Positions 3-61,660 of a DNA stretch of 64,000 bases are shown piece after piece (within the stretch, counting starts at the first letter, position 1; each line of letters starts with the position of its first letter). The position numbers and the translations under genes were made by a program. The notes below the pieces were generated by a model, which saw nothing but the letters and a program-made list of their open reading frames with translations, was not told the origin of the DNA and did not search any database. This stretch comes from Anaerolineae bacterium (GTDB taxonomy: Bacteria; Chloroflexota; Anaerolineae; 4572-78; J111), in contig JAKLJP010000007.1 in assembly GCA_023151115.1 (NCBI GenBank), forward strand, positions 186,001 through 250,000, in the 5' to 3' direction.

Positions 3-2660
3 TTAATCGCCCAAACCATCCAAGAACTCTTTGCCGGCGATAGTGAGGCCTTTCTGCGGGAAGAGGCTGTCATCTTTGACGATATTCGGGATATCCTGGA
101 TCAACAGTTTGCTCGCTTATCTGCCCTGGAGCGAGATATTATGCTCTGGCTGGCGATTGAACGGGAGGCAGTTTCCCCTCAGATTTTAAGAGATAATCTG
201 GTCAAGTCAGAGGCAGGCGGCATTTTTTTGGAGGCGCTGCGTTCGCTGCAGCGGCGGTCGTTATTGGAACAACAGGCGGCTGGCTTGACCTTGCAAAATG
301 TGGTGCTAGAGTTTTTGACCGATTATTTAGTGGAGAATGTCTGTCGGGAAATTGAGGGATCACCAGGCAGGGGAGCAGGGGAGCAGAGGAGCAAGGGAGA
401 TGAATTTTCACCCCTGCTCCCCCGCTCCCTTGCACCCCTGCATTTGAATCGGTATGCCTTGATCAAAGCCCAGGCCAAAGAGTATGTCCGGGCCAGCCAA
501 AGCCGGCTGATCCTTAAGCCGGTGGCGGAGCGATTGCTGGCGGCCTTGGGGCAGGCGGGGCTGGAGGCGCGGCTCAAGGCGATATTGGAGGCGCTGCGCC
601 AGGCTGGGCCGCAGCAGCCGGGGTATGCGGCGGGCAATCTTCTTAATTTGCTGTTGCATCTGAAGATTGAGCTTCGAGGCTATGATTTTTCCGGGTTAAC
701 GATCAGGCAAGCTTACCTGGGCGGTCTGCATGCGCCTGACCTCAATTTCGCCGGCGCCCATCTGGCCGGAGCTGTGTTTACAGACACCTTTGGGCCTACT
801 TTCTCAGTGGCCTTTAGCCCGGATGGAAAGGTATTAGCAGCGGGTACGGCTGAGGGGCAGGTTCGCTTGTGGCGGGTCACCGATGGCCAACCGCTCCTGA
901 CCTGTGAGGGTCACCTGGGGGCTGTCTGGTCAGTGGCCTTCAGTCCCGATGGCCGTCTTCTGGTCAGTGGCAGTACAGATGGGACGGTGCGCTTGTGGGA
1001 TGTTAACACCGGCCAAAGCCTCAAGATGTTGGCGGGCCACACCCACCAGGTTTGGTCAGTCGCCTTCAGTCCCGATGGCCGCCTCCTGGCCAGTGGCAGT
1101 ACAGATGGGACGGTGCGCTTGTGGGAGGTCTCCACCGGCCACAGCCTCAAGATGTTGGCCGGCCACACCCACCAGGTCAGGTCAGTGGCCTTCAGCCCCG
1201 ATGGCCGCCTCCTGGCCAGCGGCAGTTTTGATCACACGGTGGGCTTGTGGGAGGTCTCCACCGGCCACAGCCTCAAAACGTTGGCGGGCCACACTCACCC
1301 GGTTAGGTCAGTCGCCTTCAGTCCCGATGGCCGCCTCCTGGCCAGTGGCAGTAATGACCAGACGGTGCGCTTGTGGGAGGTCCCTACCGGCCAAAACCTC
1401 AAGACGTTGTCAGACCACACCAATCAGATTTCGTCAGTGGCCTTCAGTCCCGATGGCCGCCTTCTGGCCAGTGGCAGTGAAGACCAGACGGTGCGCTTGT
1501 GGGAGGTTAACACCGGCCAAAGCCTCAAAACGTTGGCGGGCCACACCCACTGGGTTTCGTCAGTGGCCTTCAGTCCCGATGGCCGCCTCCTGGCCAGTAG
1601 CAGTAATGACCAGACGGTGCGCTTGTGGGAGGTCCCTACCGGCCAAAACCTCAAGGCGTTATCAGGCTACACCAACTGGGTTTGGTCAGTGGCCTTCAGC
1701 CCCGATGGCCGCTTTCTGGCCGGTGGCTGTTTTGATCACACGGTGGGTTTGTGGAATGTGAACACCGGCCAAAGCCTCAAGACGTTATCAGGCCACACCG
1801 ACTGGGTTTCGTCAGTGGCCTTCAGCCCCGATGGCCGCCTTCTGGCCAGTGGCTGTTTTGATCATACAGCGGGCTTGTGGGACCTTCGGAACACCGGCCA
1901 AAACCTCGAGATGTTAGCGGGCCACACCAACCCGGTTTGGTCAGTCGCCTTCAGTCCCGATGGCCGTCTTCTGGCCAGTGGCAGTAATGACAAGACGGTG
2001 GGCTTGTGGGACCTTCGGCACACCGGCCACAGCCTCAAGACGTTATCAGGCCACACCCACCCGGTCAGGTCAGTGGCCTTCAGTCCCGATGGCCGCCTCC
2101 TGGCCAGCGGCAGCCAAGACCAGACGGTGCGCTTGTGGGAGGTCGCCACCGGCCAAAGCCTCAAGACGTTGGCGGGTCACACCCACCCGGTTTCGTCAGT
2201 GGTCTTCAGTCCTGATGGCCGCCTTCTGGCCAGTGGCAGTGAAGACCAGACCGTGCGCTTGTGGGAGGCCGCCACCGGTCAAGGCCTCAAGACGTTGGCC
2301 GGCCACACCCACCCGGTTTCGTCAGTGGCCTTCAGTCCCGATGGCCGCCTGCTGGCCAGTGGCGGTTTGGATCAGACGGTGCGCTTGTGGGAGGTCCCCA
2401 CCGGCCAAAGCCTCAAGACGTTATCAGGCCACACCAACTGGGTTTGGTCAGTGGCCTTCAGCCCCGATGGCCGCCTTCTGGCCAGTGGCAGCGCCGATGC
2501 AACCCTCAAACTCTGGGATGTCCGGACCGGCGACTCTCTCAAAACCCTCCAGCCCCAGCGGCCCTACGAGCGGATGAACATTACCAGCGCGACCGGGTTG
2601 ACGAAAGCGCAGAAGGCCGCTCTCAGAGCCTTGGGGGCAATAGAGACGCCTGCCTATTAA
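3..2660 (+). CDS. WD40-repeat regulator, C-terminal part (STAND/NB-ARC-type), truncated by window edge
   Basis: The frame is open from the first bases of the window, so the gene begins upstream; 885 residues are visible. Visible residues 1-110 resemble the helical part that follows the NTPase of STAND/NB-ARC WD40 proteins. A short pentapeptide-like stretch (SGLTIRQAYLGGLHAPDLNF, near base 690) precedes 14 WD40 blades of about 42 residues, enough for two seven-bladed propellers. Most blades read SVAFSPDGRLLASGS...TVRLWEV.TG..LKTL.GHT. A C-terminal tail with NITSATGLT...ALRALGAIE is typical of this family. Such proteins act as large intracellular signalling scaffolds; the ligand is unknown. Bases 363-441 are a heptamer/octamer hairpin inserted in frame, giving a Gly/Ser/Pro-rich stretch. 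The NTPase domain itself is not visible here. Confidence 0.9.
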   Translation, partial: LIAQTIQELFAGDSEAFLREEAVIFDDIRDILDQQFARLSALERDIMLWLAIEREAVSPQILRDNLVKSEAGGIFLEALRSLQRRSLLEQQAAGLTLQNVVLEFLTDYLVENVCREIEGSPGRGAGEQRSKGDEFSPLLPRSLAPLHLNRYALIKAQAKEYVRASQSRLILKPVAERLLAALGQAGLEARLKAILEALRQAGPQQPGYAAGNLLNLLLHLKIELRGYDFSGLTIRQAYLGGLHAPDLNFAGAHLAGAVFTDTFGPTFSVAFSPDGKVLAAGTAEGQVRLWRVTDGQPLLTCEGHLGAVWSVAFSPDGRLLVSGSTDGTVRLWDVNTGQSLKMLAGHTHQVWSVAFSPDGRLLASGSTDGTVRLWEVSTGHSLKMLAGHTHQVRSVAFSPDGRLLASGSFDHTVGLWEVSTGHSLKTLAGHTHPVRSVAFSPDGRLLASGSNDQTVRLWEVPTGQNLKTLSDHTNQISSVAFSPDGRLLASGSEDQTVRLWEVNTGQSLKTLAGHTHWVSSVAFSPDGRLLASSSNDQTVRLWEVPTGQNLKALSGYTNWVWSVAFSPDGRFLAGGCFDHTVGLWNVNTGQSLKTLSGHTDWVSSVAFSPDGRLLASGCFDHTAGLWDLRNTGQNLEMLAGHTNPVWSVAFSPDGRLLASGSNDKTVGLWDLRHTGHSLKTLSGHTHPVRSVAFSPDGRLLASGSQDQTVRLWEVATGQSLKTLAGHTHPVSSVVFSPDGRLLASGSEDQTVRLWEAATGQGLKTLAGHTHPVSSVAFSPDGRLLASGGLDQTVRLWEVPTGQSLKTLSGHTNWVWSVAFSPDGRLLASGSADATLKLWDVRTGDSLKTLQPQRPYERMNITSATGLTKAQKAALRALGAIETPAY
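363..441. repeat. GGAGCAGG-type repeat hairpin inside the WD40 gene
   Basis: The left arm is tandem GGAGCAGG-like units and the right arm is CCCCTGCTCC-like units. The loop GATGAATTTTCACC is almost the same as the loop of the hairpin at 19208-19292. It is read in frame without a stop. Confidence 0.8.
900..2520 (+). repeat. 126-bp tandem repeats encoding WD40 blades
   Basis: About 13 tandem units of 126 bp (one of 129 bp near 1880 and one near 2010 carry an extra codon) are nearly identical at DNA level, including the segment TCAGTGGCCTTCAGTCCCGA. Nucleotide identity this high within a coding array points to recent amplification or gene conversion. Confidence 0.85.
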
Positions 2661-2999
2661 AAGCTCTTTGCCTTTGAAAATGGGCGGCTGTATAACCTCT
2701 TTGACAACATCGAAGAGGCCAAGGAATAGACCAAGTAAACCAGAAGTATAGTGAGGATGCTTTGCCCCGGCTACGTGCTCAACTCGGGGATGTGGCATTT
2801 GAATTGGAATGGGCGAAAGGCGTGCATATGACCACCGAACAAGTGCTTGCGCTCGCGCTGAGTTGAGTGTGAATAGGTATCCGCAGCAGCCTCAATCCGA
2901 GGAGTGAGGCATATTATGTGTTAGATGTCGAACAGAGGAGCCGCATCTGCCGCGCAAGGTGACGGTTCCTCTGCTGCCCTAAAAAGGGGCTACCCTAGC
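2661..2999 (+). pseudogene. Gap with gene remnants: C-terminal tail of a LuxR/AfsR-type ATPase regulator and other scraps
   Basis: No intact gene is seen. Bases 2753-2866 read EDALPRLRAQLGDVAFELEW then AKGVHMTTEQVLALALS and stop. This matches the usual end of large LuxR/AfsR-type ATPase regulators (LGE.AF..AW.EGR.MT.E.A...AL). It has no start and no body, so it is a remnant. Bases 2661-2729 read KLFAFENGRLYNLFDNIEEA then KE and stop, a second orphan scrap of unknown origin. Bases 2891-2909 match one end of the MITE-like element found at 35217 and 36433. Confidence 0.5.
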
Positions 3000-4404: not shown

Positions 4405-4460
4405 AATAAAGACGCGATGAGGCGAATATTCGTCGCGTCACCGCGTCATCGCCTCATTTT
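4405..4460. repeat. GATGAGGC-type repeat hairpin
   Basis: Complementary arms (GACGCGATGAGGCGA and CGCGTCATCGCCTCA) surround a short AT-rich loop between the P450 and radical SAM genes. Confidence 0.7.
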
Positions 4461-5761: not shown

Positions 5762-5792
5762 ATACTCTTTGAGCTATCAGCAAGGAAAAAGC

Positions 5793-5905
5793 GATGCGTG
5801 ATACGTGATGCGTAAAGCGTAGAACGTAATGCGCAAATCGTAAATCCAAAATCGTAAATCGTAAATCCAAAATCGTAAATCGTAAATCCAAAATCGTAAA
5901 TCGTT
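5793..5905. repeat. Two adjoining 7-bp tandem arrays
   Basis: First array 5793-5833 has variants GTGATAC, GTGATGC, GTAAAGC, GTAGAAC, GTAATGC. The second, to 5905, has CGTAAAT and CCAAAAT units. Both keep strict 7-bp phase; no complementary right arm is seen. Confidence 0.75.
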
Positions 5906-9497: not shown

Positions 9498-12466
9498 GGT
9501 ATACCAAAATCCTTTTTCATTTTTTCAAGTTGTTGTAATATCTCTCCAGCTGAGGGATTACGCCCCGCAAAAAATCGCTCCCATTGCTTATTCCAGCTAT
9601 TGATCCAAGCTTCACCACCACCTCTACCATGAATATCCTTGTGGAAATCACGGGGCAATGGTACTACTTAATCCTCAATATCAAGTCCTGCTGCTTCGAA
9701 CTTGGGTCTAAATTGTTTGGGAAGCAGGTGATGCCCCTCGACAGGAGAGACCGGTAAAGTATTTGGTAAGCTAATGCCAGAATTGGCAGGAAATGAAGTA
9801 CTCAATGGAATTTGCGGCCCGAACATCGGAAACGTCCAAGTATTCGGCATCGAGTAGGGCGGTGCGCCAATTGGCCAATCAAGGCACTGCGGTTCAGCAG
9901 CCGGAAATGGCGATTGCTGGCTGTATGTTCCGGGCGGCAGAATGTTAAAGCCCGGCAAAACTTGACCCACCTCTCTTCCCGCATAAGCAATTGCCGGAAC
10001 CGCCAGGGCTATCAGGGCAACGATAACCGTCCCTGCCCCAGGGGATTCATACAACTGGGAACCGCCACTTCCTCCGGTAAGGCAGTTATCAAATTCCACG
10101 ACCGCCAGATTGCCCCCGCCGATACAACCCATCAACCCACTCGGATCCACCCGATTAACCGGATTCCCCTCGACATAACTGAAACCATTCATGGACTGCG
10201 GGCGCAGTGGGTCGCCTGGCCAGGGGTCTTTGCTCAGGAAGATGGCGCTGGAAGGGTCGTACCACCTGGCCCGCAAATGCAAGAGTTGAACATCATTTTC
10301 CCACCACTCGCCGGTAAAAGCGAAGGGCGGCATCGTTACCGGCTCAGTTGCGCCTGCTGGGGTGACCTGCACCTCATTTACATCCAACTGGATCGCCGGA
10401 AATTGAGTATTGGCGCTCACGTTGAGATATAACGCGACCGGCGTCTTTGTCACCGGCGTGGTGTAACTCGGATTGAAACTGCCCTGGATCGAGGGATGGT
10501 TATAGATGTAATCCGTGCTTCCATCAGCATAGTAGACGGAGAATCGCGAAGTTGTATAGGTTGGGGCTGTCATCACCGCGCTGATCGTCAGCGAACCGGG
10601 CACACCGCTGAGCCGTTTCTCGACCGTAAGCCCCGAACCGGCCACCGTGGCCGACAACCGCATCAGCCCCGGTGGATTAGACAATGTCGCCGTTCCTGAC
10701 CCTGCCACAACTACATTGAGAATGTTCCACCCTTCCAAATTGGCATTGAAAGTGTTACGGAAGGAATTCGTCGCTTGCGGCTGCCCGTAGGGATCATACT
10801 CGCGCCAGCCCACGACTTCTGTCCCGCTTATGACCTGCCGCACCGAACCTAAGCCATCATTGAGCAGATACACGCGCTGGTTGGCTGAGTTCTGGGCCAT
10901 CATCATTCCTGGCAGGTGCAAATACCGCGTCCCCTGGTTGGTAACGATGAGTTCCGGCAGCCCGGCGGCCCCATCCAAAGCATAATTGGTGACCGTCGCC
11001 CCAACGGTTTGCCGCACTCGGTTACCCCAGCCATCATAGGTTACTTGTAAGGCAGTATCCGCCCCCGCGCTGGAAATCAAACGATTAGCAGCGTCGTAGG
11101 CGTTGGTAATCACCCCAGTATTTGTTAAGTTGCCGTTGTTATCCCAAGTATACGTCTGTCCCGCGGCGTTGACAAGCCGGTTAGCGTCGTCATATTGATA
11201 GTTCTTTTTTAGACGGTTGCCGGCGGCATCGTAGGAATAAGCGTAGCTTTCTCCAGTGGAGTAGCCGGCGTTGGTCAAACGGGAGAGGCTGTCGTAGGTA
11301 TAGACCAGGGTGCGGGTGATCCCCGCCCCAATGAGAGCGGTTGCGAAGAGGGAGGAGCCGCTGCGGTAGATAAGCGGCAGGAAAAGGGTTAGATTGGAGT
11401 CAGGGGGCAGGGATTGAGGAGCAGTCAGGGTGGCAGCCGTAGTCCCACCTTTAAGGATGAGCGGCAGGTACAAAATCGCCTGGCGGCTGTCGCTGGTCGG
11501 CGGTTCGCCACTGTTATCTGGGCCTTCTCCGATCAGGCTAAAAGGACTAAGAGAACCACTACCACCGGGTATAACCAACGTCTCGGTGACGCGCCGCCGG
11601 TTACCCGCCGCGTCCAGGGTGTATTGATAAATCGCCAAATCACCGGCGCTGCTGCTGTGGCTCAACCGGGTCAAGCGGCCGGCGGGGTCATAGAGGTAGG
11701 TTGTTGTCACTCCGTTGGGCAAATTCAAGGTCGCCAGCCGCCCGGCGGTGTTGTAGGTGTAGGTGTAGCGCCCGCCGGTCCAATCGGTGACATTTTTCAG
11801 GCGATTGACCGCATCGTAGGTGTAGCTAACCCCCTGGTTATTCGGATAGGTCAGGCCGGCGCGCGGGCCGGCCAGATGGTAGGTGTAGGTGATGGTCTGA
11901 CCGGCCCCATTGGCGCTGCCGGTCAGGCGATACAACTTGTCGTAGCTGTAGCTGGTCGTGCCCGTGCCGTCTAGCATGCTGGTCACGTTGCCCATCTTGT
12001 CGTAGTTGAAGGTTACATCGGCGGTGCTGCCGGGGTAGTTGATGAACTTCACCCGGTTGGCCGGATCATAGGTATAGACGGTTACCTGGTTTTTGGCATC
12101 GGTGATAACGCTGGTGTTGCCAACGGCATCATAACTGTAACGGGCGGTCAGGGTCAACGGGTCGGTCAGGCTGATGAGGCGGTTGAGATCATCATATTGG
12201 AGATTTTGGATTTTAGAGTTTGGATTTTGGATTTGGGTCAGGTTGCCGACCGGGTCATAGCGATAGCGAGTGGTCACGTCCTGGTCGGTAACAGATGGGT
12301 TGAAACTCCCGTCCTGGTAGTTCTCGATGATGCTGGTTAGGTGGTTGAGGGTGTCGTAACCATAGCGGGTTTCCACCTGGCTCTGGCCGGGTTTGGAGGA
12401 AGGGGCCAGCACTTTTTCCAGGTTGCCGACGGCGTCATAATAATATTGGAGATTGGAGATTGGAGA
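9494..12466 (-). pseudogene. RHS/YD-repeat protein, C-terminal part with GHH-type nuclease toxin tip, broken by TAA
   Basis: Continues the frame of 12470-14563 after an in-frame TAA. It carries YD repeats (YDAVGN, YDPANR, YDKLYR), the RHS core end (RARWYDPSSAIFLSKDP, YVEGNPVNRVDPSGL) and a toxin tip with EGHHLLPKQFRPKFEAAG. A TAA (9668-9670) interrupts the tip after LDIED. The same frame then runs on for 57 codons (VVPLPRDFHKDIHGRGGGEA...) to a TGA at 9494-9496 that overlaps the immunity gene. Relatives are expected to have an aromatic codon (LDIED-Y-VVPLP), so this looks like one substitution. The tip resembles HNH/EndoVII-fold 'GHH' nucleases and myxobacterial SitA5/6 (DUF2380-like) toxins. 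Without read-through the second His-containing motif is lost and the toxin should be dead. Confidence 0.75.
12198..12236. repeat. TTTGGAT-type heptamer array inside the RHS gene
   Basis: Four to five units (TTTGGAT, TTTAGAG, TTTGGAT, TTTGGAT) in 7-bp phase. On the coding strand they read in frame as QIQNPNSKIQNLQ inside a YD-repeat segment. Confidence 0.7.
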
Positions 12467-12469
12467 TTA
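12447..12469. repeat. GGAGATT heptamer array that supplies a stop codon in the RHS gene
   Basis: Three TTGGAGA/GGAGATT units. On the coding strand they read TAA then SPISNLQ, in the same frame as both flanking RHS parts, so the array itself breaks the gene. Confidence 0.8.
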
Positions 12470-14563
12470 AATTTGGGTCAGCCGGTTGAGGGTATCGTAG
12501 ACATAAGTCATCGTTTCCCCGGCGTTGTTGGTGACACGGGTCAGGTTGCCAACTTCATCATAACCGTAGGTGGTGATCACATCCCGGTCCGGTTCGGCGG
12601 GGTTATACGCGCCATCGTCGTAGTTGAGCACAACCCGGCTCACCTGGCCCAACGGATTGTACTCAAAATAGGCGCGCCGGTCAAGCGGGTCGTAAATGTA
12701 CTTGAGCCGCCCATTGGTATCATATTCGTACCGGGTGATCACATCCTGATCGGGCGCTTCGCCGGCCACGTGGACACCGTTGCTGTAGTTTTGGATAACC
12801 CGGCTCAATCGCCCGGCGCTGTCATACTCGTAGCGGGTTTCGACCGATTTTGGGTCAATGAAGCTGGTCAGCCGCCCGGCCCGATCATACCCGTAATCGG
12901 TGATCAAATTACACTCGGTCGCCGGGCAACTGCTGGTCAGGTAGTTCTCAGTCACGGCGCTGAGCAGGTCGCTGTTGCTGACATATTGGTAACGGGTAAC
13001 GATCCCGCGAGCATTGGTGATTCTTGTCACCCGACCCAGGCTGTCGTAAGTAAAGCCGGTCTGCTGACCTAACGGGTTGGTTATTCTGATCAGGTTGCCG
13101 GTGGCGCTGTCGTAAGTGTAGGTGATGGTTTTGCCGCGCTCGTTGGTAATGTTTGTCACCTGGCCGCGGCTGTTGTAGGTGTAAACGGTGGTACCGGAGA
13201 CGGTGGTGATGGTTTTGAGATTGTTGGTCAAATCGTAAGTGTAGCTCAGGGTGTTGTTGCGGGCGTCGGTGATGGAGGTCAGATTGTTACGCGCATCATA
13301 AGTAAAGCGGGTCCGGTTGCCCAGAGCATCGGTGATGGCAGTGGTCAACCCCAGGGTTGTAACGTAGGTGTAGGTAATAGGGTTGTGGCGGGCATCCATG
13401 ACCTTTTTGCGGTTAAAGCCATTGTCAAAGTCATAGCTCTGGCTGCGGCCCAGGGCATCGGTTTGGCCGACCAGCAGGTTGTTTGTGCCATAGGTATCGG
13501 TCAGCACCCGGCCCATTTCGGTGACGGTGCGGGTGTTGCTGCCATAGGTAATTTGGACGATGGGCTGGCCGGCGCCATTCTGCTGGCTCGTTGCTCGCCC
13601 CTGGCTGTCAAAAAAAGTTTTTTCGACAATCCTGTTGGTGGGGTCGGTGACTATGTGCAAATAGTGGTTGCCGCTGTAGGTGTAGGTCCAGGTCATCCCC
13701 CGTGTATCCACCACCTGCGTTAAATCGCCGCTGCCGTTGTAGCTGTAAGTAACGGCCCGCCCGGTGTGATCGGTCACTCTTCTGAGCCGCCCGGCGCTGT
13801 TGTAAGCGAAATCCAGGCTGCGCCCGCTGGCAGCGTCGGTGACGCGGGTCAGCGTAATCCCGCCGGTGTAGGTCAAGTGGGTGGCGTTGCCCTGCGGGTC
13901 GAGATGATGGATCAGCCGGCCGGTGTTGGTGAAAACAAAGGTCTCCTGGCTAACTGCTGTAACCGTGTAAACGTAGCTGCTGGGGCCCGTTCCCCCGCGT
14001 ATCATCGTCGCCCACACGCCGGGATAGGCTATATACGTGCCGTTGCCGTTGTCGCCAAAGCGCAGGCGGGACCCATGCGGCGCTTTGAGGATGACCACCC
14101 CGGCCTCGCCGCCGGGGTCTGTTGGGAAGGCCAGCTTGAGGTCGTAATTGTGCGTCCAGCCGTAGCCTAGCGGCTTGGAGTAAACCACTGTACCGGTGAC
14201 GGGCAGGCTGTTGTAACTGCGCTCAAAGCGCAGGGGCTGGCCGACGGCGGCAATCTCAAAGTCGGTGGTCTGGTAGTTGTAGTTGCCGCTGAAGGTGTTG
14301 ATGGGAAAGGGGGTGAAGTGATGCTTTGTCTCGTTGCCGCAGAAAGGGCATTCGTTAGGCGCGTAGAGGTGCTGTAACAGGTTGACCGGTTGGTAGGTAG
14401 CCGGGACAAAGCGCACGTAGTCCCAAAGCACCTCTTTTGAACCGCTGGTGAGGGTATTTCCATTCGCACTCAAACGAACATATCTGAACGAGCCTGTATT
14501 CGTAGCAGCCGCACGGGTTAGGGGTTGGGAACAGCCAAAGTTAGGGCACTGAGGAAAGCCCAA
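12467..14563 (-). pseudogene. RHS/YD-repeat protein, middle part
   Basis: 698 residues of DUF6531-type start (FSGNYNYQTTDFEIAAVGQP, FERSYNS) followed by many YD repeats (YDARNNL, YDLTNNL, YDSLGRV, YDRAGRL). In RHS proteins these build the hollow shell that encloses the toxin. It ends at a TAA (12467-12469) lying within a GGAGATT array, after which the same frame continues into the C-terminal part. At its start the frame is shifted relative to the signal-peptide part (14518-15204): in this frame the sequence just upstream still reads plausibly (DWPWSDLPLGFPQCPNFG), putting a one-base shift near 14575-14600 at a GGCCC run. Either the gene is decayed or the assembly has an error there. Confidence 0.75.
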
Positions 14564-15228: not shown

Positions 15229-15290
15229 ACGGTAGATGGTAGATGGTAGACAGGGGTAATACATCCCTGCTACCTTGCTACCTGCTACCT
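15229..15290. repeat. GTAGATG-type heptamer hairpin upstream of RHS gene
   Basis: Left arm three GGTAGAT units; right arm CTACCTT/GCTACCT units; loop ACAGGGGTAATACATCCCTG, similar to the loop of the hairpin in the trp leader (44672-44745). Confidence 0.8.
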
Positions 15291-15420
15291 TTTCAAGGTG
15301 AAATAGAAATTGGACTAAACAAAAAACGCGCTAACCACTTTTGCCTCCTTGTTTAGAGAAACAATCGCCGTTAGCGCGTTGAGCGTCGTTAATTTTTATT
15401 TTGAGTTCAGGAAGGGAGGG

Positions 15421-18193: not shown

Positions 18194-18212
18194 TGCTGCC
18201 TCGCTAAAAAGA

Positions 18213-18247
18213 ATGGAGATTGGAGATTAACCATCTTTAATCTCCAA
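18213..18247. repeat. GGAGATT-type short hairpin in a divergent promoter region
   Basis: GGAGATTGGAGATTAA faces TTTAATCTCCA across the loop CCATC, between the divergent small membrane protein and response regulator genes. Confidence 0.75.
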
Positions 18248-18437
18248 CTTGACCCTATTCTAAGCCAACTAACCCGCCGCCATCCACCCCTTGAGCGCCT
18301 GATTTAAAGCACTTGAGTGCTTGACCGGCCTTTCTTTGTTTGATACGCTGGCTGAAGGATTAGCTGAGGCTTGACACGATTCCCTATCTCTGATACGTTT
18401 AATTCATTAAATTTGACAACCAATTGTCTAACAAAAC

Positions 18438-19214: not shown

Positions 19215-19292
19215 TCAGCAGAGGAGCAGGGGAGCAGGGGAGCAGGGGGGAATTTTTCACCTCCGCTCCCCCGCTCCCCTGCTCCCCTGCTC
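19208..19292. repeat. GGAGCAGG-type repeat hairpin between regulator and kinase genes
   Basis: Left arm is four GGAGCAGG-like units, loop GGAATTTTTCACC, right arm CGCTCCCC/TGCTCCCC units. It has the same unit and loop as the element inside the WD40 gene. Confidence 0.85.
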
Positions 19293-30075: not shown

Positions 30076-30077
30076 CC

Positions 30078-43778: not shown

Positions 43779-43794
43779 GGATCAAATTCGGTAA

Positions 43795-43848
43795 AGGCTG
43801 GAAGGTTGGTAAAAAATACTAACCAATCTTCCAGCCTTCCATTCTTCC
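43795..43848. repeat. GGCTGGAAGGTTGG-type repeat hairpin
   Basis: AGGCTGGAAGGTTGGT faces ACCAATCTTCCAGCCTTCC across a short loop; same family as 35306-35370. Confidence 0.8.
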
Positions 43849-43900
43849 CTGATTACTGAGATCACCGATTTTGAACGAGACTCAGTTTATCCAGCCCCTT

Positions 43901-44666: not shown

Positions 44667-44671
44667 TTTCG

Positions 44672-44745
44672 GCAGACAGTAGATGGTGGACAGTAGATAG
44701 GGAAAGTACTTCCCTGTCTACCGTCTACTGTCTACCGTCTACTTA
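44672..44745. repeat. GTAGATG/CAGTAGA heptamer hairpin between T-box and trpE
   Basis: ACAGTAGATGGTGGACAGTA on the left, CTACCGTCTACTGTCTACCG on the right, loop GGGAAAGTACTTCCC. It lies in the untranslated leader after the regulatory terminator. Confidence 0.9.
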
Positions 44746-46262: not shown

Positions 46263-46331
46263 AACGGCAGGGGGGCTGGGGAGCAGGGGAGACCCTCTTC
46301 CCCTACTCCCTACTACTTACTACCTACTCCC
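46263..46331. repeat. Mixed GGAGCAGG / CCTACTC repeat between trpE and trpGD
   Basis: Left arm CTGGGGAGCAGGGGAG; right arm CCTACTC, CCTACTA, CTTACTA, CCTACTC in 7-bp phase. Confidence 0.75.
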
Positions 46332-48310: not shown

Positions 48311-49171
48311 ATGACAATATTAGACGATATCATCAAATACAAACGCCATGAAGAACTGCCCAAACAGATGCAAGCCCGCGAGCCGGCCGTCGTGCGGGCC
48401 GAGGCCGCCCTATCTCCCAAACCGAGGGATTTTGTGGCCGCCTTACGGGCGACGAACCGGGTGGCCCTGATTGGCGAGGTCAAAAAAGCATCGCCCAGCA
48501 AGGGACTGCTGCGCCACAACTTCGACCCGGTTGAACTGGCTCAAACCTACGCCACCAACGGCGCAGCCGCCATTTCGGTGCTGACCGATGCTCGATATTT
48601 TCAGGGGAAGCTGGAATATTTGAGCCAAATTCGAAAAGCGCTTGCCTCGACCGGGGACCGGAGACCGAAGACCGGAAATCTTACACCCCCTACTCCCCGC
48701 TTCGCGTCCTTACTTCCTACTCCTCTCCTCCGCAAAGACTTCATCTTTCACCCCTACCAAGTGTACGAAGCTCGCGCTGCCGGGGCCGATGCGCTGCTGT
48801 TGATTGCGGCGGTGCTCAATGATAAAGAGCTGGCCGACCTGCTGGCCTTGACCCGCGAATTAGGTTTAACGGCCTTGATTGAAGTCCATGACCGGGTCGA
48901 GTTGGAGCGGGTTTTACCCTTACAGCCCCGGCTGATTGGGGTTAACAACCGCGATTTGCGCGATTTTTCGGTGGATTTGAATCTTTGCATCGAGCTACGC
49001 CAGCACGTGCCCGCCGATATCTGCTTTGTGGCCGAAAGCGGCATCCACACGGCAGCGGATGTGGCGCTGCTGGCTAAAGAGGGCATTGACGCAATTTTGG
49101 TCGGCGAGGCGTTGGTGAAGGCGAAGGATGTGGGCAAGAAAGTGAGGGAGTTGATAAATTATGAATTGTGA
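48311..49171 (+). CDS. trpC: Indole-3-glycerol phosphate synthase
   Basis: 286 residues from ATG 48311. Catalytic blocks GEVKKASPSKG (55-65), RKDF (141-144), DALLLIAA, LIEVHD and VNNRDLRDF, then SGIHT and VGEALVK. It closes the ring of CdRP to indole-3-glycerol phosphate. Residues about 112-137 (STGDRRPKTGNLTPPTPRFA...) are a heptamer-derived insert replacing the usual few residues before LRKDF, on the face opposite the active-site strands. The last residues and stop (YEL) come from another heptamer hairpin shared with the opposing cyclase gene. Confidence 0.95.
   Translation: MTILDDIIKYKRHEELPKQMQAREPAVVRAEAALSPKPRDFVAALRATNRVALIGEVKKASPSKGLLRHNFDPVELAQTYATNGAAAISVLTDARYFQGKLEYLSQIRKALASTGDRRPKTGNLTPPTPRFASLLPTPLLRKDFIFHPYQVYEARAAGADALLLIAAVLNDKELADLLALTRELGLTALIEVHDRVELERVLPLQPRLIGVNNRDLRDFSVDLNLCIELRQHVPADICFVAESGIHTAADVALLAKEGIDAILVGEALVKAKDVGKKVRELINYEL
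48649..48740. repeat. GACCGGA heptamer insert inside trpC
   Basis: Units GACCGGG, GACCGGA, GACCGAA, GACCGGA; then CCTACTC-like units (CTACTCC, TTACTTCCTACTCCTCTCCT). In frame, no stop. Confidence 0.85.
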
Positions 49172-49212
49172 ATTGTGAACCTTAACCATTCACAATTGGC
49201 TATTCACAATTT
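49162..49212. repeat. GTGAATT heptamer hairpin at converging gene ends
   Basis: GAATTGTGAATTGTGAA on the left, TTCACAATTGGCTATTCACA on the right. The stop of trpC lies in the left arm and the stop of the opposing cyclase gene in the right arm. It could act as a bidirectional terminator. Confidence 0.9.
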
Positions 49213-52200
49213 CCGCCATGACCGCCGCATTGATACGCACGTTTTCCAGGTAACTTTGTTGGAGTTCAAGGTTATGAATCAGATCGGCTTTGGCTTTGAC
49301 TAGATTGTACGCTTCGCGGAGCGCCCACTGCGCTTCCGGCTCATCATTGCGGGCGCGGCAGACTTGAGCGTAAATCCACCAGACATTTTGGGGTGGATAC
49401 TCGCCGCTGCCGGAACTGTTTTGCAGGTGTTCAATGGCTTCGCGCAGGGATTGATAGGCCAACACGGCCTCGCCGGCAGCCAGGCTGGCTTCGCCCATTG
49501 CCGCTAGACTGGCTACATAGTTGCCGATTTCGCCCAGGTCGCGGCGCAGGCTGCAAGCCAGGTGAAAACGGCGCACCGCTTCCTCGGCCTGGCCGCGAGC
49601 CAGGTACAGGTAGCCCAGGTCGTGCAGGCAAAAAGCCGCGCCGCGCCGGTCGCCGATGGTGTTGCGCAGGGCCAGCGAGCGTTCCAAATTGTCCTGAGCC
49701 TGGCGGTAATCGCCCAAAATCGTCTGGACCTGGCCCAGGGTGTTCAGACTGATGCCCTCCCGCAAACGGTCGCCGATGGCATGACTGATGGAAAGGGCCT
49801 GCATATAGCACTGCTGCGCTTGTTCATACCGGCCCAGGCTGGCTTCCAGCAGACCCAAATTGTTGGCGCAGCCGGCCTCACCGCCGCGATCACCGCTGCT
49901 CCGGTAAATTTCCAGAGCTTGCTGGTAATCCTGGCGGGCCTGTTCGTAATCCGACATCTGGGTGTGGATGAGGCCCAGATAATTGAGACTGGTAGCTCTG
50001 AGTTGGTCGTCGTTGACTGCGCCCTCAACCGCCAGCACTTGCTGAAAGGCGGCGCGGGCTTCGGCGTAGCGGCCCTGTCGCCACTCGGTGATGCCCAGGT
50101 TGACCAGAGTTCGGGCTGCCCACAGTGGCTGCCCGCTCTGCTCAGCCAGGGCCAGGGTCTCCTGGGCAATCTCGATGGCGTCGTGATAGTCACCGAGATT
50201 AGTTGCCAGTTGCAGCCGCCGGTTGCCCGTTTCCAGTTGATGAGCCAGATCGCCTTCGGCCAGGGCCAGAGCTTTCATGCGGGTCAGGTCTTCCACCTGA
50301 GCCATGCGGTTACCCAAACGGCTGTAGGCCAGTTCCCGGCCGGCCAGCAGGTCGTACTGTACTTTAACAATTTCAAGTTCTTTAGCTACGGCCAGGGCAT
50401 CGCCAAAGTAGCCGATGGCGGCTTCGTTGGCGTAGCCGTCGAGCGCTTTTTGACCGGCCAGGCGCAGGTAATGGAGAGCTTTGTCGCGCTGGTTGCTGCG
50501 GGCATAATGGTAAGCCAGCAGGTCCACAATCTCACCCTCGTTCTGGGCGTAGCGGCTCTCTAAAACCGCGCCGATGGTGGCGTGCAGTTCGCGCCGCTGC
50601 GAGTAGAGCATGGTTTCATAGGCCACTTCCTGAGTGATGACATGCTTGAAAAGAAAATCTAGCTCGCTCTCTTTGGCTTCCTGGCGGGTGAAATCTTTGG
50701 CTTGCAGGCTGGCCAGATGAGCATTGAGGGTCGTGGTCGCCGTGACCCAGGGATGGACCGCTTCCAACAGGTCACGCTGAAAAGTGCGACCAATGGCCGC
50801 TGCAACTTTGAGGGTGATTTTTTCGGCCTCCGGCAGCCGGTCAATGCGAGCCAGAACCACTTTTTGCACCGTGTCCGGTAGTTCCTGCTTATCCAAATCG
50901 CCGGTCAGCCGGCACTCACCGTTTTCGATGGTTAGCGCGCCCATGCTCAGCAGCGAATTGAGCAGTTCCTCGATGAAAAGAGGATTGCCCTGGCCTTTGC
51001 GGCCAATCAAATCGGCCAGTGGGGTGGGTAAAGATTTGACGCCCAGCTTGGTCTGGGCCAATTTCAGACCGGCTTCCGGCCCCAACTCTTCCACCTGAAT
51101 GGCGGTGGTATGGGGTAAAGCCAACAAACGTTGATAAGACGAAGGGACCGGCTGGCCGAGCGGGCGATGGGCGAGCAGCAGCAAGATGGGCTGAGTGGCA
51201 ATTTCGGTGGCCAGGTAGATGGCAAGTTCAAGCGAAAGCTCATCACTCCAGTGGGTATCTTCTAATAAAAGGAGAGTGGGCCGCTGCTGGGCTTCGGCCA
51301 GGGCAATCGTCCGGATAGCGGCGAAAATGTTGTCGCGGCGCAGGTTGTCGCTCAGGTTACGGGTCAGATCGGTTTCATCAGCCTCCAGGCCCAGAATATT
51401 AGCCAGGAGGGGCAGGCGCTCCAGCCAATAAGCTTCGCGCGAACTGGCGGTGTGCTGGGGACCCGTCGCCGGGGCCGAAGTTGACAAGCGGTGCAGCAGC
51501 CGGGTCAGACGCGCCAGGCGTTCTTTGACCGGCAGCCGAGAAGAAAGGCCGGCAATAGAAGAGAGAATACCGCGCCAGGGCAGGTAGGGAGTTTTGCTGC
51601 CATAGCTGACACAATCGCCGCCGTGCGATACGCCGCCGCGCTCCATCCAGCGGCGCACAATTTCGGCGGCCAGGCGGCTTTTGCCCACCCCGGCTTCGCC
51701 GTTGAGCAGCAGCACCTGGCCGGCACCGGCCCAAACCTGGTCGGCCAGGGCCTCAACAATTTTGAGTTCCTTGTCGCGCCCGGTCAATTCCTGGCTGCTG
51801 CGCAGATAGCTCATGACCAATTCTTCCTGATCCTGCTCTTTTTCGCGCAGAGCCATGAAAACGTGACGCAGTTCAGCTTTGCCCTTGAGGTGAATCTCAC
51901 CCAAATCCTGGAACTCGAAGAAGCGGTCGGCCTGGCTCTGCACCGAGCGGTCTACCCAAACTTCGCCGGGGCCGGCTTTTTGCATCAGCCGGGCGGCCAG
52001 GTTGACCGTATCGCCGATGACGGTGTACTCCCGGCGCTGCGGCGCACCAAGGGGACCGGCAAACAGCGGCCCGGCGGCCAGCCCAATTCGGGCTTCCAGG
52101 CGGTGGCGAGCAGCCACTTTACCCAACGCCAGGGCGCAAGCGACGGCCCGGACCTCGTCGTCTTCGTGAAAGAAGGGAGGGGCGCCGAACAGGACCAGCA

Positions 52201-53173: not shown

Positions 53174-53442
53174 CACAGGTAAGGTAGTGTTGCGTAGTGC
53201 GTGGTGCGTATAGAATAAACAGAACACATCCTACGAAACGACGAAAAAGATTGTTTGAATAGCTAGAATTTGCAGCGATTTTGGGGGTGAAGGGCGCAGC
53301 ACAAGCGGAAGGTGGTCCCCCGGTACTATTTTAACACAAAAGTTTTTGAATTGGGTTTGAGTGGAATAAATTTTAACGTTGTTAAAAATATTAATCGCAC
53401 CAGTGAGGGTATTTGTTCAATAGGACAATAGTTTAGTATGAT

Positions 53443-53485
53443 ATGTGAAGCGTGATGCGTGAAGCGTGAGGCGTAAAATGAGATG
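53443..53485. repeat. GTGATGC heptamer array
   Basis: Units GTGAAGC, GTGATGC, GTGAAGC, GTGAGGC, GTAAAAT in 7-bp phase. Confidence 0.7.
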
Positions 53486-53527
53486 CTTGGTTACTATAGT
53501 TCTCCAGAAAAGTTTTCGTCACTGAAA

Positions 53528-53585
53528 CAGGTAGCAAGGTAGCATGTAGCAGGCCATAAGTTTGCTACTTTGCTACCTGCTACCT
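53528..53585. repeat. GTAGCAA heptamer hairpin upstream of trpF
   Basis: GGTAGCAAGGTAGCATGTAGC on one side and GCTACTTTGCTACCTGCTACC on the other, loop about 12 bases. Confidence 0.85.
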
Positions 53586-53631
53586 TGATTGTTGGGAAGG
53601 AATTTTTCTGGACACCTATAAGAGGACAAGA

Positions 53632-54387
53632 ATGACAAAAGTTAAAATCTGCGGGATTACCAATTTGGAAGATGCGCTCGTGGCGGTGGAGGCCGGGGCG
53701 GATTTGTTGGGTTTTATTTTTTATGAGCCAAGTCCGCGTTACGTGAAGCCGGAAACTGTGCGTGAAATAGTGTCAAGTGTCAGGTGCCAGGTGTCGAGTG
53801 TCGAGTGTCAAGTGTCAAGTGATACAGTACAAGAAGCCAAAGACCGGGATCAAACACCCTACGCACCACGCACCACGCACCACGTTGCTTTCATCGGCGT
53901 CTTTGTCAACAGCCCGCTTGACGCCGTTGCTCGCCTGCTGGATTTCTGCGGACTCGACGCCGCTCAATTGCACGGCGAAGAGCCGCCGGAGTTTGTGAGT
54001 CATTTCGCCGGCCGGGCCTTCAAAGCCCTGCGTCCCCAATCGCTGGGGGAGGCTGAGGCATCCATCGAAAAATATCTCCCCTGCTCCCCCGCCGGGCGCT
54101 CCGCGCTCGGCAGTCCCCTGCTCCCCTGCTTTCTTCTCGATGCCTATCATCCCAATCTCTACGGCGGCACCGGCCACGTGACCGATTGGGAGATGGCGGC
54201 CAGCATTGCCCGGCGGTATCCCATCATGCTGGCGGGGAGTTTGACGCCTGAAAATGTAGGCGAGGCGGTGCAGGTGGTTCAACCCTGGGGAGTGGATGTC
54301 AGCAGCGGGGTGGAGCGGGAGAAGGGGAAAAAAGACCATAATAAGGTAAGAGCGTTTGTGGAGGCGGTGCGAGCTGCTTCACCTTGA
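53632..54387 (+). CDS. trpF: Phosphoribosylanthranilate isomerase with two repeat-derived inserts
   Basis: 251 residues against about 205 usual. Catalytic C7 (VKICGIT), substrate motifs DLLGFIFYEPSPRYV, GVFVN, QLHGEEPPEF, LLDAY (general acid Asp), GGTGHVTDWE, LAGSLTPENV and VDVSSGVE are all present. It isomerises PRA to CdRP. Insert 1, about 35 residues (from SSVRCQV to TTHHVAF), consists of two different heptamer arrays and sits between the second helix and the GVFVN strand. Insert 2 (about 15 residues, PCSPAGRSALGSPLLP) precedes the LLDAY strand. Both keep the frame. The extra length lies outside the barrel core, so the enzyme may remain active. Confidence 0.93.
   Translation: MTKVKICGITNLEDALVAVEAGADLLGFIFYEPSPRYVKPETVREIVSSVRCQVSSVECQVSSDTVQEAKDRDQTPYAPRTTHHVAFIGVFVNSPLDAVARLLDFCGLDAAQLHGEEPPEFVSHFAGRAFKALRPQSLGEAEASIEKYLPCSPAGRSALGSPLLPCFLLDAYHPNLYGGTGHVTDWEMAASIARRYPIMLAGSLTPENVGEAVQVVQPWGVDVSSGVEREKGKKDHNKVRAFVEAVRAASP
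53771..53886. repeat. Heptamer arrays (GTGTCAA and CGCACCA) inside trpF
   Basis: Seven units of GTGTCAA/GTGTCGA/GTGCCAG type, a non-repeat stretch, then three CGCACCA units. The two arrays are not complementary to each other. Confidence 0.9.
54078..54133. repeat. CTCCCCTG repeat (second insert in trpF)
   Basis: CTCCCCTGCTCCCCCGCCGG and CAGTCCCCTGCTCCCCTGC around CGGGCGCTCCGCGCTC; right-arm type of the GGAGCAGG family. Confidence 0.8.
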
Positions 54388-54631: not shown

Positions 54632-55861
54632 ATGAACACATCCCAAATCAAAGGCAAATTCGGCCCTTACGGCGGCCAGTTTGTGCCCGAAACATTGATG
54701 CCGGCCCTGGCCGAACTTGAAGCAGCCTATGAAGCGACCCAGGCTGATCCTGAATTTCAGGCCGAATTTCAGCATTTGCTCAAAACCTACGTCGGACGGC
54801 CTACCCCGCTGACTTACGCCGGGCGGCTGACGGCGCACTTGGGGGGGGCCAAAATCTATCTCAAACGAGAGGATTTGACCCACACCGGGGCGCACAAAAT
54901 CAACAATGCCCTGGGACAGGCGTTGCTGGCTAAACGTATGGGCAAACGGCGCATTGTCGCCGAAACCGGAGCCGGCCAGCACGGAGTGGGCAGCGCCACC
55001 GCCTGCGCGCTGTTGGGGTTGGAGTGCATCGTCTACATGGGCGAGGTGGATATGGCTCGCCAGCAGCCCAATGTGTTCCGCATGCGTCTGGCCGGAACCG
55101 AGGTGCGCCCAGTAAGCAGCGGCAGCCGAACCCTGAAAGACGCCATCAACGAGGCCATCCGTGATTGGGTAACAAATGTGCGGACAACCCACTATCTGCT
55201 CGGCTCGGTGCTGGGGCCGCACCCTTATCCGACGATGGTCCGTGATTTTCAAAGCGTAATTGGCCGCGAGGCCCGCGCCCAGATTTTGGAAGCGGAAGGC
55301 CGCCTGCCCGATTTGCTGCTGGCCTGCGTCGGCGGCGGGTCGAACGCGATGGGGTTATTCCACGCTTTTGTAGGAGACAAACAGGTAGATATGCTCGGCG
55401 TCGAAGCCGGCGGCAGCGGCATCGAGACGGGCAAGCATGCGGCCAGGTTTGCGCCGCCATCCCTCGCGGAAGGAGGCAGGAGCGGGGTCGAGGCGCGTTT
55501 GGGCGTCCTCCATGGCACCAAATCCTATGTGTTGCAAACGCCCGACGGCCAGATTGCCGAAACGCACTCGATTAGCGCCGGGCTGGATTATCCCTCGGTC
55601 GGGCCGGAGCATGCCTGGCTGCGCGACCAGGAACGGGCCGGCTACACCTACGCCACCGACGCAGAAGCCCTGGCGGCGGTCAAAACCCTCAGCCAGATGG
55701 AAGGGATTATCCCGGCCCTGGAGTCGGCTCATGCCATCGCCGAAGTCATCAAACGCGCCCCCACCATGTCCAGGGATAGTATTATCATCGTCAATCTGTC
55801 GGGCCGGGGCGACAAGGATTTGGATACGATTATGCGAGAGTTAGGAAAACGTGAAGCGTGA
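54632..55861 (+). CDS. trpB: Tryptophan synthase beta chain
   Basis: 409 residues from ATG 54632 with GAAGGAG upstream. PLP lysine K89 in HTGAHKINN, phosphate loop [21 protein letters not shown] and the C-terminal SGRGDKD are all present: TrpB1 type, made for complex formation with TrpA. It condenses indole with serine to tryptophan. trpA is not adjacent but three genes away. The last codons and stop (GKREA) fall in a heptamer array. Confidence 0.97.
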
Positions 55862-55922
55862 ACCGTCTTGCGTCTTGCGTCTTGCGTAATCTTTAACGGA
55901 AGACGCAACACGCAAGACGAAT
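55848..55922. repeat. CTTGCGT heptamer hairpin between trpB and trpS
   Basis: CGTCTTGCGTCTTGCGTCTT on the left, AAGACGCAACACGCAAGACG on the right, also GTGAAGCGTGAA at the trpB end. Confidence 0.88.
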
Positions 55923-58123: not shown

Positions 58124-58897
58124 ATGACGGGTATTGAACGGATTCGAAATGCTTTTACCACCGGCCGTCCGGCCTTTATGCCCTATTCGGTGCTGGGGTA
58201 TCCGACCCGCCAGGCTGGGCTGGAAACGATCCGGGCGGTCGTTGCAGCCGGGGCCGACCTGTTGGAACTGGGCGTCCCTTTTTCCGACCCGCTGGCCGAT
58301 GGGCCAACAATCCAGGCAGCGACCCAAAAGTCGCTGGAAAATGGGACGACGGTCAAGGATTGTCTGGCCCAGGTGCGAGAGCTGCGCCGGCAAGGTATTG
58401 ACACTCCGGCCCTGCTGATGGGTTATATCAATCCCATCCTGGCTTACGGCCCGGAAAAATTCACAGCCGACGCGGCTGCGGCGGGGGTAGACGGCTTAAT
58501 CGTGCCCGATTTGCCCCCGGAAGAAGCCGCCGAACTGGAAGCCCTCTGCGCCGAACACGGTCTGGCCCTGGTTTACCTGCTGGCCCCCACCAGCACCCCG
58601 GAACGGATCAAGACCGTGGTTAAAAAATCCCAGGGCTTCATCTATCTGGTGTCGCTCACCGGCGTGACCGGGGCGCGAAACGAACTTCCGCCCGACCTGG
58701 CCGAATTTGTGGCGCGAGTGAGAGCGCAAACCAGCCTCCCTCTGGCCGTCGGTTTTGGCATTGGCAATAGGGAGCAGGCTCGCGCCGTTGGCCGGCTGGC
58801 CGATGGGGTTATCGTCGGCAGCGCCCTGGTCAAACGCGCCGCCGAATCGCCGGAGCGAGTGCGGGAGTTGGCCGAGGAACTTCGGGCAGCTCTATAA
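58124..58897 (+). CDS. trpA: Tryptophan synthase alpha chain
   Basis: 257 residues from ATG 58124 with GAGGAAAC upstream, 10 bp after the zinc-ribbon gene. Catalytic E48 ([11 protein letters not shown]) and D59 (ADGPTIQ), [23 protein letters not shown] and [10 protein letters not shown] are present. It cleaves indole-3-glycerol phosphate and channels indole to TrpB. Complete and of normal length. It closes the tryptophan region; a heptamer hairpin follows its stop. Confidence 0.97.
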
Positions 58898-58970
58898 ACC
58901 GTGAACCGTGATACGTGATATGTGATGATCATATATCGAAAACCCGCACGCATCACGTATCACGCATCAA
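58898..58970. repeat. GTGATAC/GTGAACC heptamer hairpin after trpA
   Basis: GTGAACCGTGATACGTGATA on the left, CGCATCACGTATCACGCATC on the right. It touches the trpA stop codon and may help terminate. Confidence 0.85.
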
Positions 58971-59013
58971 TCCGCTTTTGCCCTTCCTCAATCTCATGGC
59001 ATAATATCCCCCT

Positions 59014-61572: not shown

Positions 61573-61589
61573 CCCGCCAGCGCAAAAGG

Positions 61590-61660
61590 CTGAAAACTTT
61601 CCAACCTTCCAATCCTCCAACCTTCCAGCCCAATCCTCCAAATTATAGCCTCCAAATCTT
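61590..61660. repeat. CCAACCTT-type 8-bp repeat after the transglycosylase gene
   Basis: CCAACCTT, CCAATCCT, CCAACCTT, CCAGCCCAATCCTCC units; right-arm type of the 35306 and 43795 hairpins; no left arm. Confidence 0.7.

Follow-up and report, generated by a model that had tools for sequence, protein, structure and literature searches.

A 64,000-nt stretch of an Anaerolineae bacterium genome (GCA_023151115.1, contig JAKLJP010000007.1, positions 186,001–250,000; this whole stretch is called the window below) holds about 30 genuine loci of short arrays built from 7-bp, sometimes 8-bp, tandem units, here called words. Each locus comprises either a single array or a pair, mostly separated by 0–30 bp, in which the G-rich, C-poor strand of both arrays runs 5' to 3' towards a shared centre; a hairpin results where both arms of the pair carry the same word. 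The constant feature of these elements is the inward orientation of the arrays and not the loop, and the arrays are supplied by a limited vocabulary of words that is used genome-wide. The window was compared with its nearest relative by trpGD, the metagenome-assembled genome H5_CFX5 (labelled Anaerolineales; L004, genome G001), and with the more distant H5_CFX7 (L001, genome G002).

The first-pass annotation of the window had described about 30 loci of such units, lying both between and inside genes, and this was borne out. Tandem Repeats Finder returned arrays at nearly every place that it had named, and the units GTAGATG, GGAGATT, GACCGGA, GTGAATT, CTTGCGT, GTGTCAA and CGTAAAT were all found; trpC, trpF and a WD40 gene carry arrays within their reading frames. 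Strong self-similarity runs numbered 8 at period 7 and 5 at period 8, against a mean of 0.0 in ten order-1 Markov sequences, so the periodicity is not that of shuffled sequence. The arrays fall into 35 clusters where about 4 are expected, the latter figure being derived from 34 clusters in one order-2 Markov sequence modelled on 580 kb of G001, nine times the window length. The 580 kb of G001 itself contain 188 clusters, with 133 rows of period 7, against none in either of two Markov sequences, and 48 rows of period 8, against 3 and 0; 180 rows reduce to 70 canonical units. A strong inverted repeat accompanies 12 of the 35 window clusters and 91 of the 188 in G001, compared with 0 of the 34 Markov clusters and 9 of 300 random segments. 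The paired share is thus roughly a third to a half over the window and G001, and the annotation's description of many loci as two arms applies to about a third of those in the window and not to the rest. The words are not confined to one lineage, since GTAGACN arrays are present in 8 of 61 genomes. The loci share the defining traits of heptanucleotide repeats of the short tandemly repeated repetitive (STRR) type, namely dispersed 7-bp (sometimes 8-bp) tandem units far above chance and identical words at many loci and in other lineages. They depart from the published descriptions, as we read them, in not being restricted to one word in direct orientation: they include inward pairs, and 57 of 163 pairs combine different words.

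The polarity of the arms was recorded as the order of G-rich (G) and C-rich (C) arrays along the strand read, G-C being inward and C-G outward. Among 93 hairpins with periodic arms (82 from the 580 kb of G001 and 11 from the window), the 5' arm was G-rich in 88, C-rich in 3 and even in 2, whichever strand was read. Neighbouring arrays at most 60 bp apart in G001, the window and syntenic stretches gave 94 pairs: 72 G-C, 8 G-G, 8 C-C, none C-G and 6 with an even array. These pairs are not independent because orthologous stretches are mixed, which is avoided in a count over eight genomes (stretches of about 1.5 Mb in all, window excluded, 163 pairs). There, the 74 same-word pairs comprised 61 G-C, 7 C-G and 6 other (one-sided chance 3.7e-12), and the 57 different-word pairs comprised 26 G-C, 1 C-G, 14 G-G, 10 C-C and 6 with an even array (26 against 1, one-sided chance 2.1e-7); 30 ambiguous pairs included 18 G-C and 1 C-G, and a further 2 pairs were direct. 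When G001 and G145 were set aside, inward to outward counts were 25:1 for same-word and 16:1 for different-word pairs. Clusters of at least three arrays followed the same order: of 21, 3 had an even array and 2 were of one kind only, and in all 16 mixed clusters every G array preceded every C array. The inward strand consists of 40% G, 28% A, 23% T and 9% C, partly by definition, as the pairs were picked by G-C sign. Across the class, GGAGATT faces inward in 251 matches (summed, overlapping registers included) in 27 of 298 genomes and outward in 6 matches in 2 of 298, with both orientations together in no genome. The stretches of G145, G264, G246, G125, G268 and G020 were picked partly for GGAGATT or GTAGACN matches, and 11 of the 20 sampled stretches are shorter than 20 kb, the contigs themselves being shorter.

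The annotation had also likened the arrays to the heptanucleotide repeats of cyanobacteria, and this kinship is reasonable. Among plasmids, 38 records match the GCAGGGGA hairpin at 19217 (E up to 1), and Nostoc accounts for 24 of these. For the window GGAGATT hairpin, a search of plasmids gave only one weak match, in Vibrio (E=5). Six Nostoc plasmid stretches (L250–L255), a biased and plasmid-only sample picked by match to the GCAGGGGA hairpin, yielded 13 pairs, 9 G-C, 1 C-G, 2 G-G and 1 C-C. These plasmids carry GCAGGGGA octamer hairpins with a recurrent AAAGAACTTGTACAA-like loop and the polarity of the window.

The two arms of a hairpin behave as independent arrays. Complementarity of an arm to its own partner was 0.779 and to a swapped arm of the same word 0.796, with the own partner higher in 12 of 36 elements (p=0.21), whereas simulated arm copies favoured the own partner in 25 of 30 cases at 5% divergence (p=3e-6), 10 of 13 at 10% (p=0.057) and 7 of 7 at 15% (p=0.016). 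Likewise, unit variants of GGAGATT are mirrored at 38 of 55 positions in 22 elements, where 35.4 are expected from independent arms. Fold-back copying of one arm from the other is therefore not supported, as own arms match no better than other arms of the same word.

Comparison with the relatives revealed both empty sites and unit changes at the same site, and the sequences are not identical throughout. The window is about 90% identical to G001, with aligned stretches on three contigs mostly at 83–99% (one at 71%), and aligned stretches of G002 are mostly 73–82% identical. Flanks could be mapped for 31 of 33 loci in G001 (the other 2 were left out) and for 10 of 33 in G002. By eye, the 31 loci were grouped into 6 with at most two differences, 13 that keep the word with changed copies or variants, 9 whose site carries a different word in at least one arm, and 3 at which the element is missing, two of which (24650 and 24784) share one gap. 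At 55845, CGTCTTG in the window corresponds to GTGAGGC/GTGATAC in G001 and GTGATGC in G002; the 9-bp unit at 28645 is replaced in G001 by GGAGATT, GATAGAG at 29960 and GAATTGT at 49152 both by GAGGCGAT, AAGGTTGG at 35309 by GTAGACA/GCTACTT and, inside trpF at 54073, CTGCTCCC by AACCTTCC. One arm was exchanged while the other was kept at 48649 in G001, and at 20898 and 19217 in G002. Where the alignment between window and G001 breaks, an array is present in at least one of the two genomes at 13 of 22 breaks, and at 4 of these the genomes carry arrays of different words, so that the repeats mark many places at which genomes of close relatives lose alignment. An apparent 23rd break at 10327–14880, which also holds an array, is an artefact of the overlap rule, spanned by a high-scoring segment pair, and was left out of the 22; at 2674, 25908 and 42062 only the window side is readable, and the array at 48051 has only 2.0 copies.

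Arrays that lie within genes give rise to inserted loops in the encoded proteins, as alignments of TrpC and TrpF indicate. The TrpC insertion (48649) is missing or much shorter in 5 of 7 aligned relatives (L001, L002, L003, L008 and L074), and the first TrpF insertion is missing in 5 of 7. The repeats thereby show how changing loop insertions entered trpC and trpF. An Ardenticatenia TrpC (L007, 11655–12527) has a long insertion of its own at the loop where the window trpC carries the heptamer element.

Ordinary polymerase slippage, combined with template switching at quasi-palindromes such that one arm templates the other, would account for the whole-unit copy changes at 5780 and 53769 (21 bp each). 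According to the accessible parts of two reports, no other long simple repeat is as common as the heptamer in many bacteria, and slippage was put forward as its origin (PMC4679880, PMC4692102). Slippage of this kind predicts matched arms, which neither the arm comparison nor the GGAGATT variants show, and it predicts neither strand polarity nor pairs of unrelated words, leaving the replacement of one word by another at the same site unexplained; we regard it as distinctly unlikely.

A further possibility is that the elements are RNA hairpins under selection, acting as terminators, attenuators or mRNA stabilisers, whose words drift while pairing holds. Many of them lie just after stop codons or in leaders, and the stretch from the T-box leader to the trpE start codon contains a GTAGAYR hairpin in the window and G001 and a GACCGCC hairpin in G002. 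Moreover, when the same substitutions were placed at random, the observed stability was reached in only 5, 0 and 0 of 500 trials (44670, 19217 and 38588, respectively), although this procedure places single substitutions and may mislead where units are exchanged as a whole. Over eight orthologous hairpins, 177 pairs were unchanged, 8 were kept after a one-sided and only 3 after a two-sided change, 14 were broken and 1 fell in a gap; compensatory changes thus do not exceed broken pairs, and selection on exact pairing is not supported by these counts although stability is retained. The arms are uncoupled, chimeric pairs cannot form a same-word hairpin yet retain the polarity, and several elements lie inside trpC and trpF. 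Selection on RNA hairpins therefore seems unlikely, and exchange of whole units drawn from one vocabulary would explain uncoupled arms and retained stability together.

The first-pass annotation had further claimed that different units share the same loops. The letters of the likenesses it named are correct, but the units are not different: the pair at 363–441 and 19217–19292 has a common loop and a common unit (GCAGGGGA), and the pair at 15229–15291 and 44670–44743 a common loop type and the left-arm unit GTAGAYR. Loops were compared in the 580 kb of G001 (53 loops of at least 6 bp from 64 elements), where they were at least 70% alike in 2 of 74 same-word and 1 of 1304 different-word pairs, and a single loop with swapped units is accordingly not supported.

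Some elements do belong to dispersed families. The element at 15229 has at least 44 matches at 78–97% in G001 and G002 with conserved loop and flanks, and several copies of a CGTGTTG element likewise share loop and flanks. The main rival to extension of DNA ends, which we favour below, is hairpin transposition into hairpin loops: small non-autonomous palindromes, comparable to repetitive extragenic palindromic (REP) sequences or miniature inverted-repeat transposable elements (MITEs), would be copied and land preferentially in the loops of existing hairpins, chimeric pairs being nested insertions that have lost arms. Both families fit this account, as do nested elements in G001 (C4 110240–110386 and 337206–337367) and at 29960–30081 of the window, and the G-then-C order is the expected residue of loop insertion. 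Against it, loops are rarely shared within a word (the 2 of 74 above), the arms of one element are unmatched, no constant terminal sequence or target duplication was noticed by eye at the window loci, and Y1 transposase has 3 matches each in G001, G002 and G004 and none in G003, which nevertheless has a GGAGATT hairpin. Mobile palindromes are thus a serious but doubtful explanation. Mobilisation of REP sequences by REP-associated tyrosine transposases (RAYTs) in particular seems doubtful with so few Y1 genes, which may or may not be RAYTs, and by eye no GTAG or CGTC tag was seen on elements of the words GGAGATT, GACCGGA, GAATGGC and GAGGCGA.

Other dispersed repeats were also detected. A palindromic MITE-like element of about 100 bp (5665–5766, 35215–35309 and 36432–36510; fold z-score -7.65) has at least 38 copies at 90–98% in G001 and none among the matches listed in G002 (E 1e-20), which probably reflects a recent expansion. 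A repeat of about 130 bp (31584–31727) has 5 copies at 91–92% among the matches listed in G001, and one of about 120 bp (40030–40152) has 4 copies at 84–89% among those listed in G002. The 20-bp inverted repeat around the GTAGCAA hairpin (53495–53620) resembles a larger MITE carrying a heptamer hairpin. Short perfect or near-perfect palindromes lacking heptamer structure (18583–18616, 36526–36560 and 42916–42954) are possibly terminators.

The changes between relatives appear to be concentrated at the centre of the elements. Outer units are kept and the interior is exchanged at 29960, 55845, 20898 and 38588; at 29960 the outer GAGGCGA arms of the G001 hairpin remain in the window, with GATAGAG arms inside them. 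Pooled identity over 16 loci was 0.84 in the flanks, 0.78 in outer units, 0.64 in the middle and 0.58 at the centre, a gradient that is support and not proof because an alignment anchored in the flanks favours such a result. The nested elements of G001 fit the same picture. We propose, as a plausible though not yet probable reading, that arms are laid down from the flanks towards a recurrently broken or stalled centre, with words renewed inside. SbcCD is a nuclease that cuts hairpins near the tip. The centre would be a recurrent weak point, either because a nuclease such as SbcCD cuts the tip of an extruded hairpin there or because a fork stalls. From each flank, the 3' end would then grow inward by C-poor repeat sequence, obtained by copying or slippage from repeats that the cell already contains, and the two extended ends would be joined. 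The donor of a word is probably another array in the cell. Outer units would remain while the inner part is replaced, so that one arm or both can change word. Such inward extension and joining would produce inward C-poor strands, independent arms, pairs of unrelated words, same-site replacement and new central arrays. Most elements may simply be passengers that are tolerated at the ends of genes and in loops of proteins, any effect as RNA hairpins being a by-product.

Alternatively, a telomerase-like reverse transcriptase (RT) with a short RNA template might add G-rich heptamers to broken 3' ends. The geometry of the elements is that of two fused telomeres, and the accessible text on the defence RT DRT10 describes tandem-repeat DNA made by a telomerase-like mechanism (PMC12632851). 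The only RVT_1 match in G001 reads as an enzyme of a diversity-generating retroelement. We take it to be of this type from its IGNLTSQ motif and its neighbour, presumably an FGE-sulfatase-like open reading frame (ORF), the two adjoining in a probable retroelement at L242 69–2358; a telomerase-like enzyme is therefore unlikely in this genome. G241 has five GGAGATT hairpins and no RVT_1 match, and a genome uses dozens of words (the 70 canonical units of G001). Overall, we consider reverse transcription of this kind highly improbable.

Several observations weigh against end extension. There are exceptions to the polarity: G145 has outward pairs of GGAGATT and GGTATCG alongside inward pairs of other words, and outward pairs also occur in G246 (2), G264 (1) and G001 (1, at a looser threshold only). 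Polarity therefore seems to be set per word and lineage and not by chemistry alone. The outward GGAGATT/GGTATCG pairs of G145 were seen in stretches L195, L196, L197, L199 and L208. The arm test loses power with divergence, as fewer elements remain testable. Individually, outer identity exceeded central identity at 9 of the 16 loci, equalled it at 2 and was lower at 5 (p=0.022 only), and by eye 28645 and 35309 keep no outer unit. The 15229 and CGTGTTG families travel whole, with loop and flanks, which points to copying and not to local accretion. SbcD was found in 8 of 11 genomes and not in G264 and G268, both with such pairs, or in G019, all of which may be incomplete. Ku was found in 0 of 16 genomes, which rules out Ku-type end joining as the route. 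Finally, 83% of Xanthomonas heptamers are kept in the same gene context, in surroundings more stable than controls, according to the available part of that study (PMC4692102).

Table 1. Repeat loci of the window: position, element and gene context, and state in the relatives G001 and G002.
363..441	GCAGGGGA octamer hairpin inside ORF 141-2660 (WD40-repeat protein)	no such element here in G002
4422..4458	GAGGCGA / TCGCGTCA repeats adjoining radical-SAM gene	flanks unmapped in G001 and G002
5780..5905	GATGCGT array, then long CGTAAAT/CCAAAAT array (chimeric G-then-C pair)	G001 shorter by 21 bp (3 units)
12196..12236	GATTTTG heptamer array in minus-strand ORF 9668-12412	identical in G001
12445..12470	GGAGATT array, 3.4 copies, flanked by two minus-strand ORFs	one difference in G001
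15229..15291	GTAGAYG left arm and GCTACCT right arm around AGGGGTAATACATCCCT	dispersed family, many copies in G001 and G002
18210..18250	GGAGATT hairpin	arms longer in G001; different sequence in G002
19217..19292	GCAGGGGA octamer hairpin immediately following stop codon of ORF 18438-19214	17 substitutions in G001, predicted stability equal; left arm of GGATGAA units in G002
20898..20965	GACCACC left and AATCTCC-CCAATAC right array (chimeric), in ORF 19198-21483	G001 and G002 share outermost left unit with window but differ inside
24650..24722	GATAGAG/GATAGAA hairpin after stop of ORF 23810-24649	absent in G001
24784..24815	CTGACTA array just upstream of ORF 24808-25830	missing from G001 in the gap shared with 24650
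25980..26045	GACCGAA/GACCGGA hairpin	G001 not collinear
28645..28747	hairpin with 9-bp ATTCGTGAT unit	GGAGATT hairpin at same place in G001
29960..30081	nested: outer GAGGCGA arms (word of the G001 orthologue), inner GATAGAG/CTATCTT arms	
35309..35372	AAGGTTGG octamer hairpin	GTAGACA/GCTACTT hairpin in same spacer in G001
37755..37790	TGAGGCGA array between ORFs 36637-37761 and 37802-38563	two differences in G001
38588..38679	GACCGGA hairpin at start of ORF 38572-40038	outer arms kept and centre diverged in G001
43790..43850	AAGGTTGG hairpin after GTP cyclohydrolase I gene	absent in G001
44670..44743	GTAGAYR hairpin between T-box leader and trpE	GACCGCC hairpin at same site in G002
46267..46331	GCAGGGGA left and CCCTACT right array (chimeric) between trpE and trpGD	
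48649..48722	GACCGGA left array and CTACTCC-type right arm inside trpC	right arm TCCTCGCC in G001
49152..49215	GAATTGT hairpin at end of trpC	GAGGCGAT hairpin in G001
53185..53212	GTGGTGC array at 5' end of ORF 49190-53227 (minus strand)	
53440..53478	GTGAAGC/GTGAGGC array upstream of trpF	shorter in G001
53519..53590	GTAGCAA/GTAGCAG hairpin within outer inverted repeat 53495-53514 / 53601-53620	
53769..53821	AGTGTCA array, 7.6 copies, inside trpF	G001 shorter by 21 bp (3 units, frame kept)
53861..53884	ACGCACC array inside trpF	
54073..54135	GCTCCCCT array inside trpF	AACCTTCC in G001 and CTGCCCC in G002 at corresponding place
55845..55919	outer-left GTGAAGC units, then CGTCTTG hairpin	GTGAAGC units kept in G001
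58895..58972	GTGATACG hairpin after ORF 58103-58897	
61590..61650	AACCTTCC array after ORF 59014-61572	GGAGATT-type arrays in longer corresponding spacer in G001

Apart from the arrays, the window has a T-box leader (RF00230) upstream of the trp genes at 44321–44620. The WD40 protein ORF (141–2660) contains 12.4 copies of a 126-bp repeat, and its counterpart in G002 is 91–98% identical, well above most other aligned stretches of G002, which suggests transfer or exchange. The region of ORF 42248–42898 (42096–42900) matches several neighbouring places in G001, a local duplication there, and at 33506–33565 G001 carries an extra 4.8 kb.

Parts of this picture are already known, as far as the accessible texts go: heptanucleotide repeats, also in Chloroflexus, a heptamer hairpin at one Nostoc site, and convergent pairs in Xanthomonas. 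For Chloroflexus aurantiacus, 22 satellites of the word GATAGRA have been reported (PMC6749651), and GATAGRA is one of the words found here; TAACTGA arrays occur in Beggiatoaceae, cyanobacteria and Bacteroidetes (PMC4679880). The present arrays resemble heptanucleotide STRRs and long simple repeats in their 7-bp tandem units, few words, dispersed and mostly intergenic position and presence in distant lineages. Unlike the available accounts of STRRs, which treat direct repeats of one word at a time, they form inward pairs, often of two words, and relatives can differ in the word that they carry at a given site. The closest parallel is GGGAATC of Xanthomonas, a G-rich heptamer with 70 convergent site pairs in Xcc (186 patterns) and 75 in Xac (183 patterns), whose polarity, by our reading, equals that of the window (PMC4692102). 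In contrast to the window, a single word is involved there and the pair type is usually preserved between species, and the consulted part of that paper reports no word exchange or chimeric pairs; it found only few such pairs in Nostoc PCC 7120 (PMC4692102). In the P6b stem of the Nostoc tRNALeu(UAA) intron, degenerate heptanucleotide repeats of two motif classes pair into a hairpin, as they do here, but at one intron site and not dispersed, and the portion of the report that we cite does not mention polarity or arm independence (PMC3488679). Palindromes tagged with GTAG or CGTC and associated with RAYTs are reported also from Chloroflexi and Cyanobacteria and, like the present elements, are short dispersed hairpins sometimes inside genes (PMC3733652). 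REP sequences, as the accessible text describes them, bear a tetranucleotide tag at one end of the palindrome, whereas here the arms are tandem units of many words with no constant end. The likeness to DRT10 and telomerase lies in tandem-repeat DNA produced from one strand and, for the inward G-rich geometry, in fused telomere ends (PMC12632851, in the part consulted); it differs in that no suitable RT was found in G001, many words occur per genome and there is no sign of defence products. Our search, which most subscription papers lay outside, found no account of convergent word-exchanging pairs in Chloroflexota, nor, more generally, of convergent pairs that are chimeric, of independent arms or of words exchanged at orthologous sites.

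The accumulation in bacteria of repeats with a unit of exactly seven letters is a long-standing puzzle. Slippage is the explanation cited for heptamer repeats in the accessible sections of the literature (PMC4679880, PMC4692102). Neither slippage nor selection on hairpins predicts the polarity, the fact that it also holds where the two words are unrelated, or arms that are independent of each other. It is possible, if rather doubtful, that a repair pathway in Chloroflexota, and perhaps in Cyanobacteria and Xanthomonas, seals gaps by extending 3' ends with C-poor heptamers, leaving inward repair scars that are renewed centrally. If this holds, bacterial heptanucleotide repeats would stem from a single strand-polar process rather than from simple slippage. 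The strand bias and centre-first renewal make the origin of these repeats testable in any species with heptamers, and the facing pairs and word exchange hint at an unrecognised mode of DNA renewal between and inside genes.

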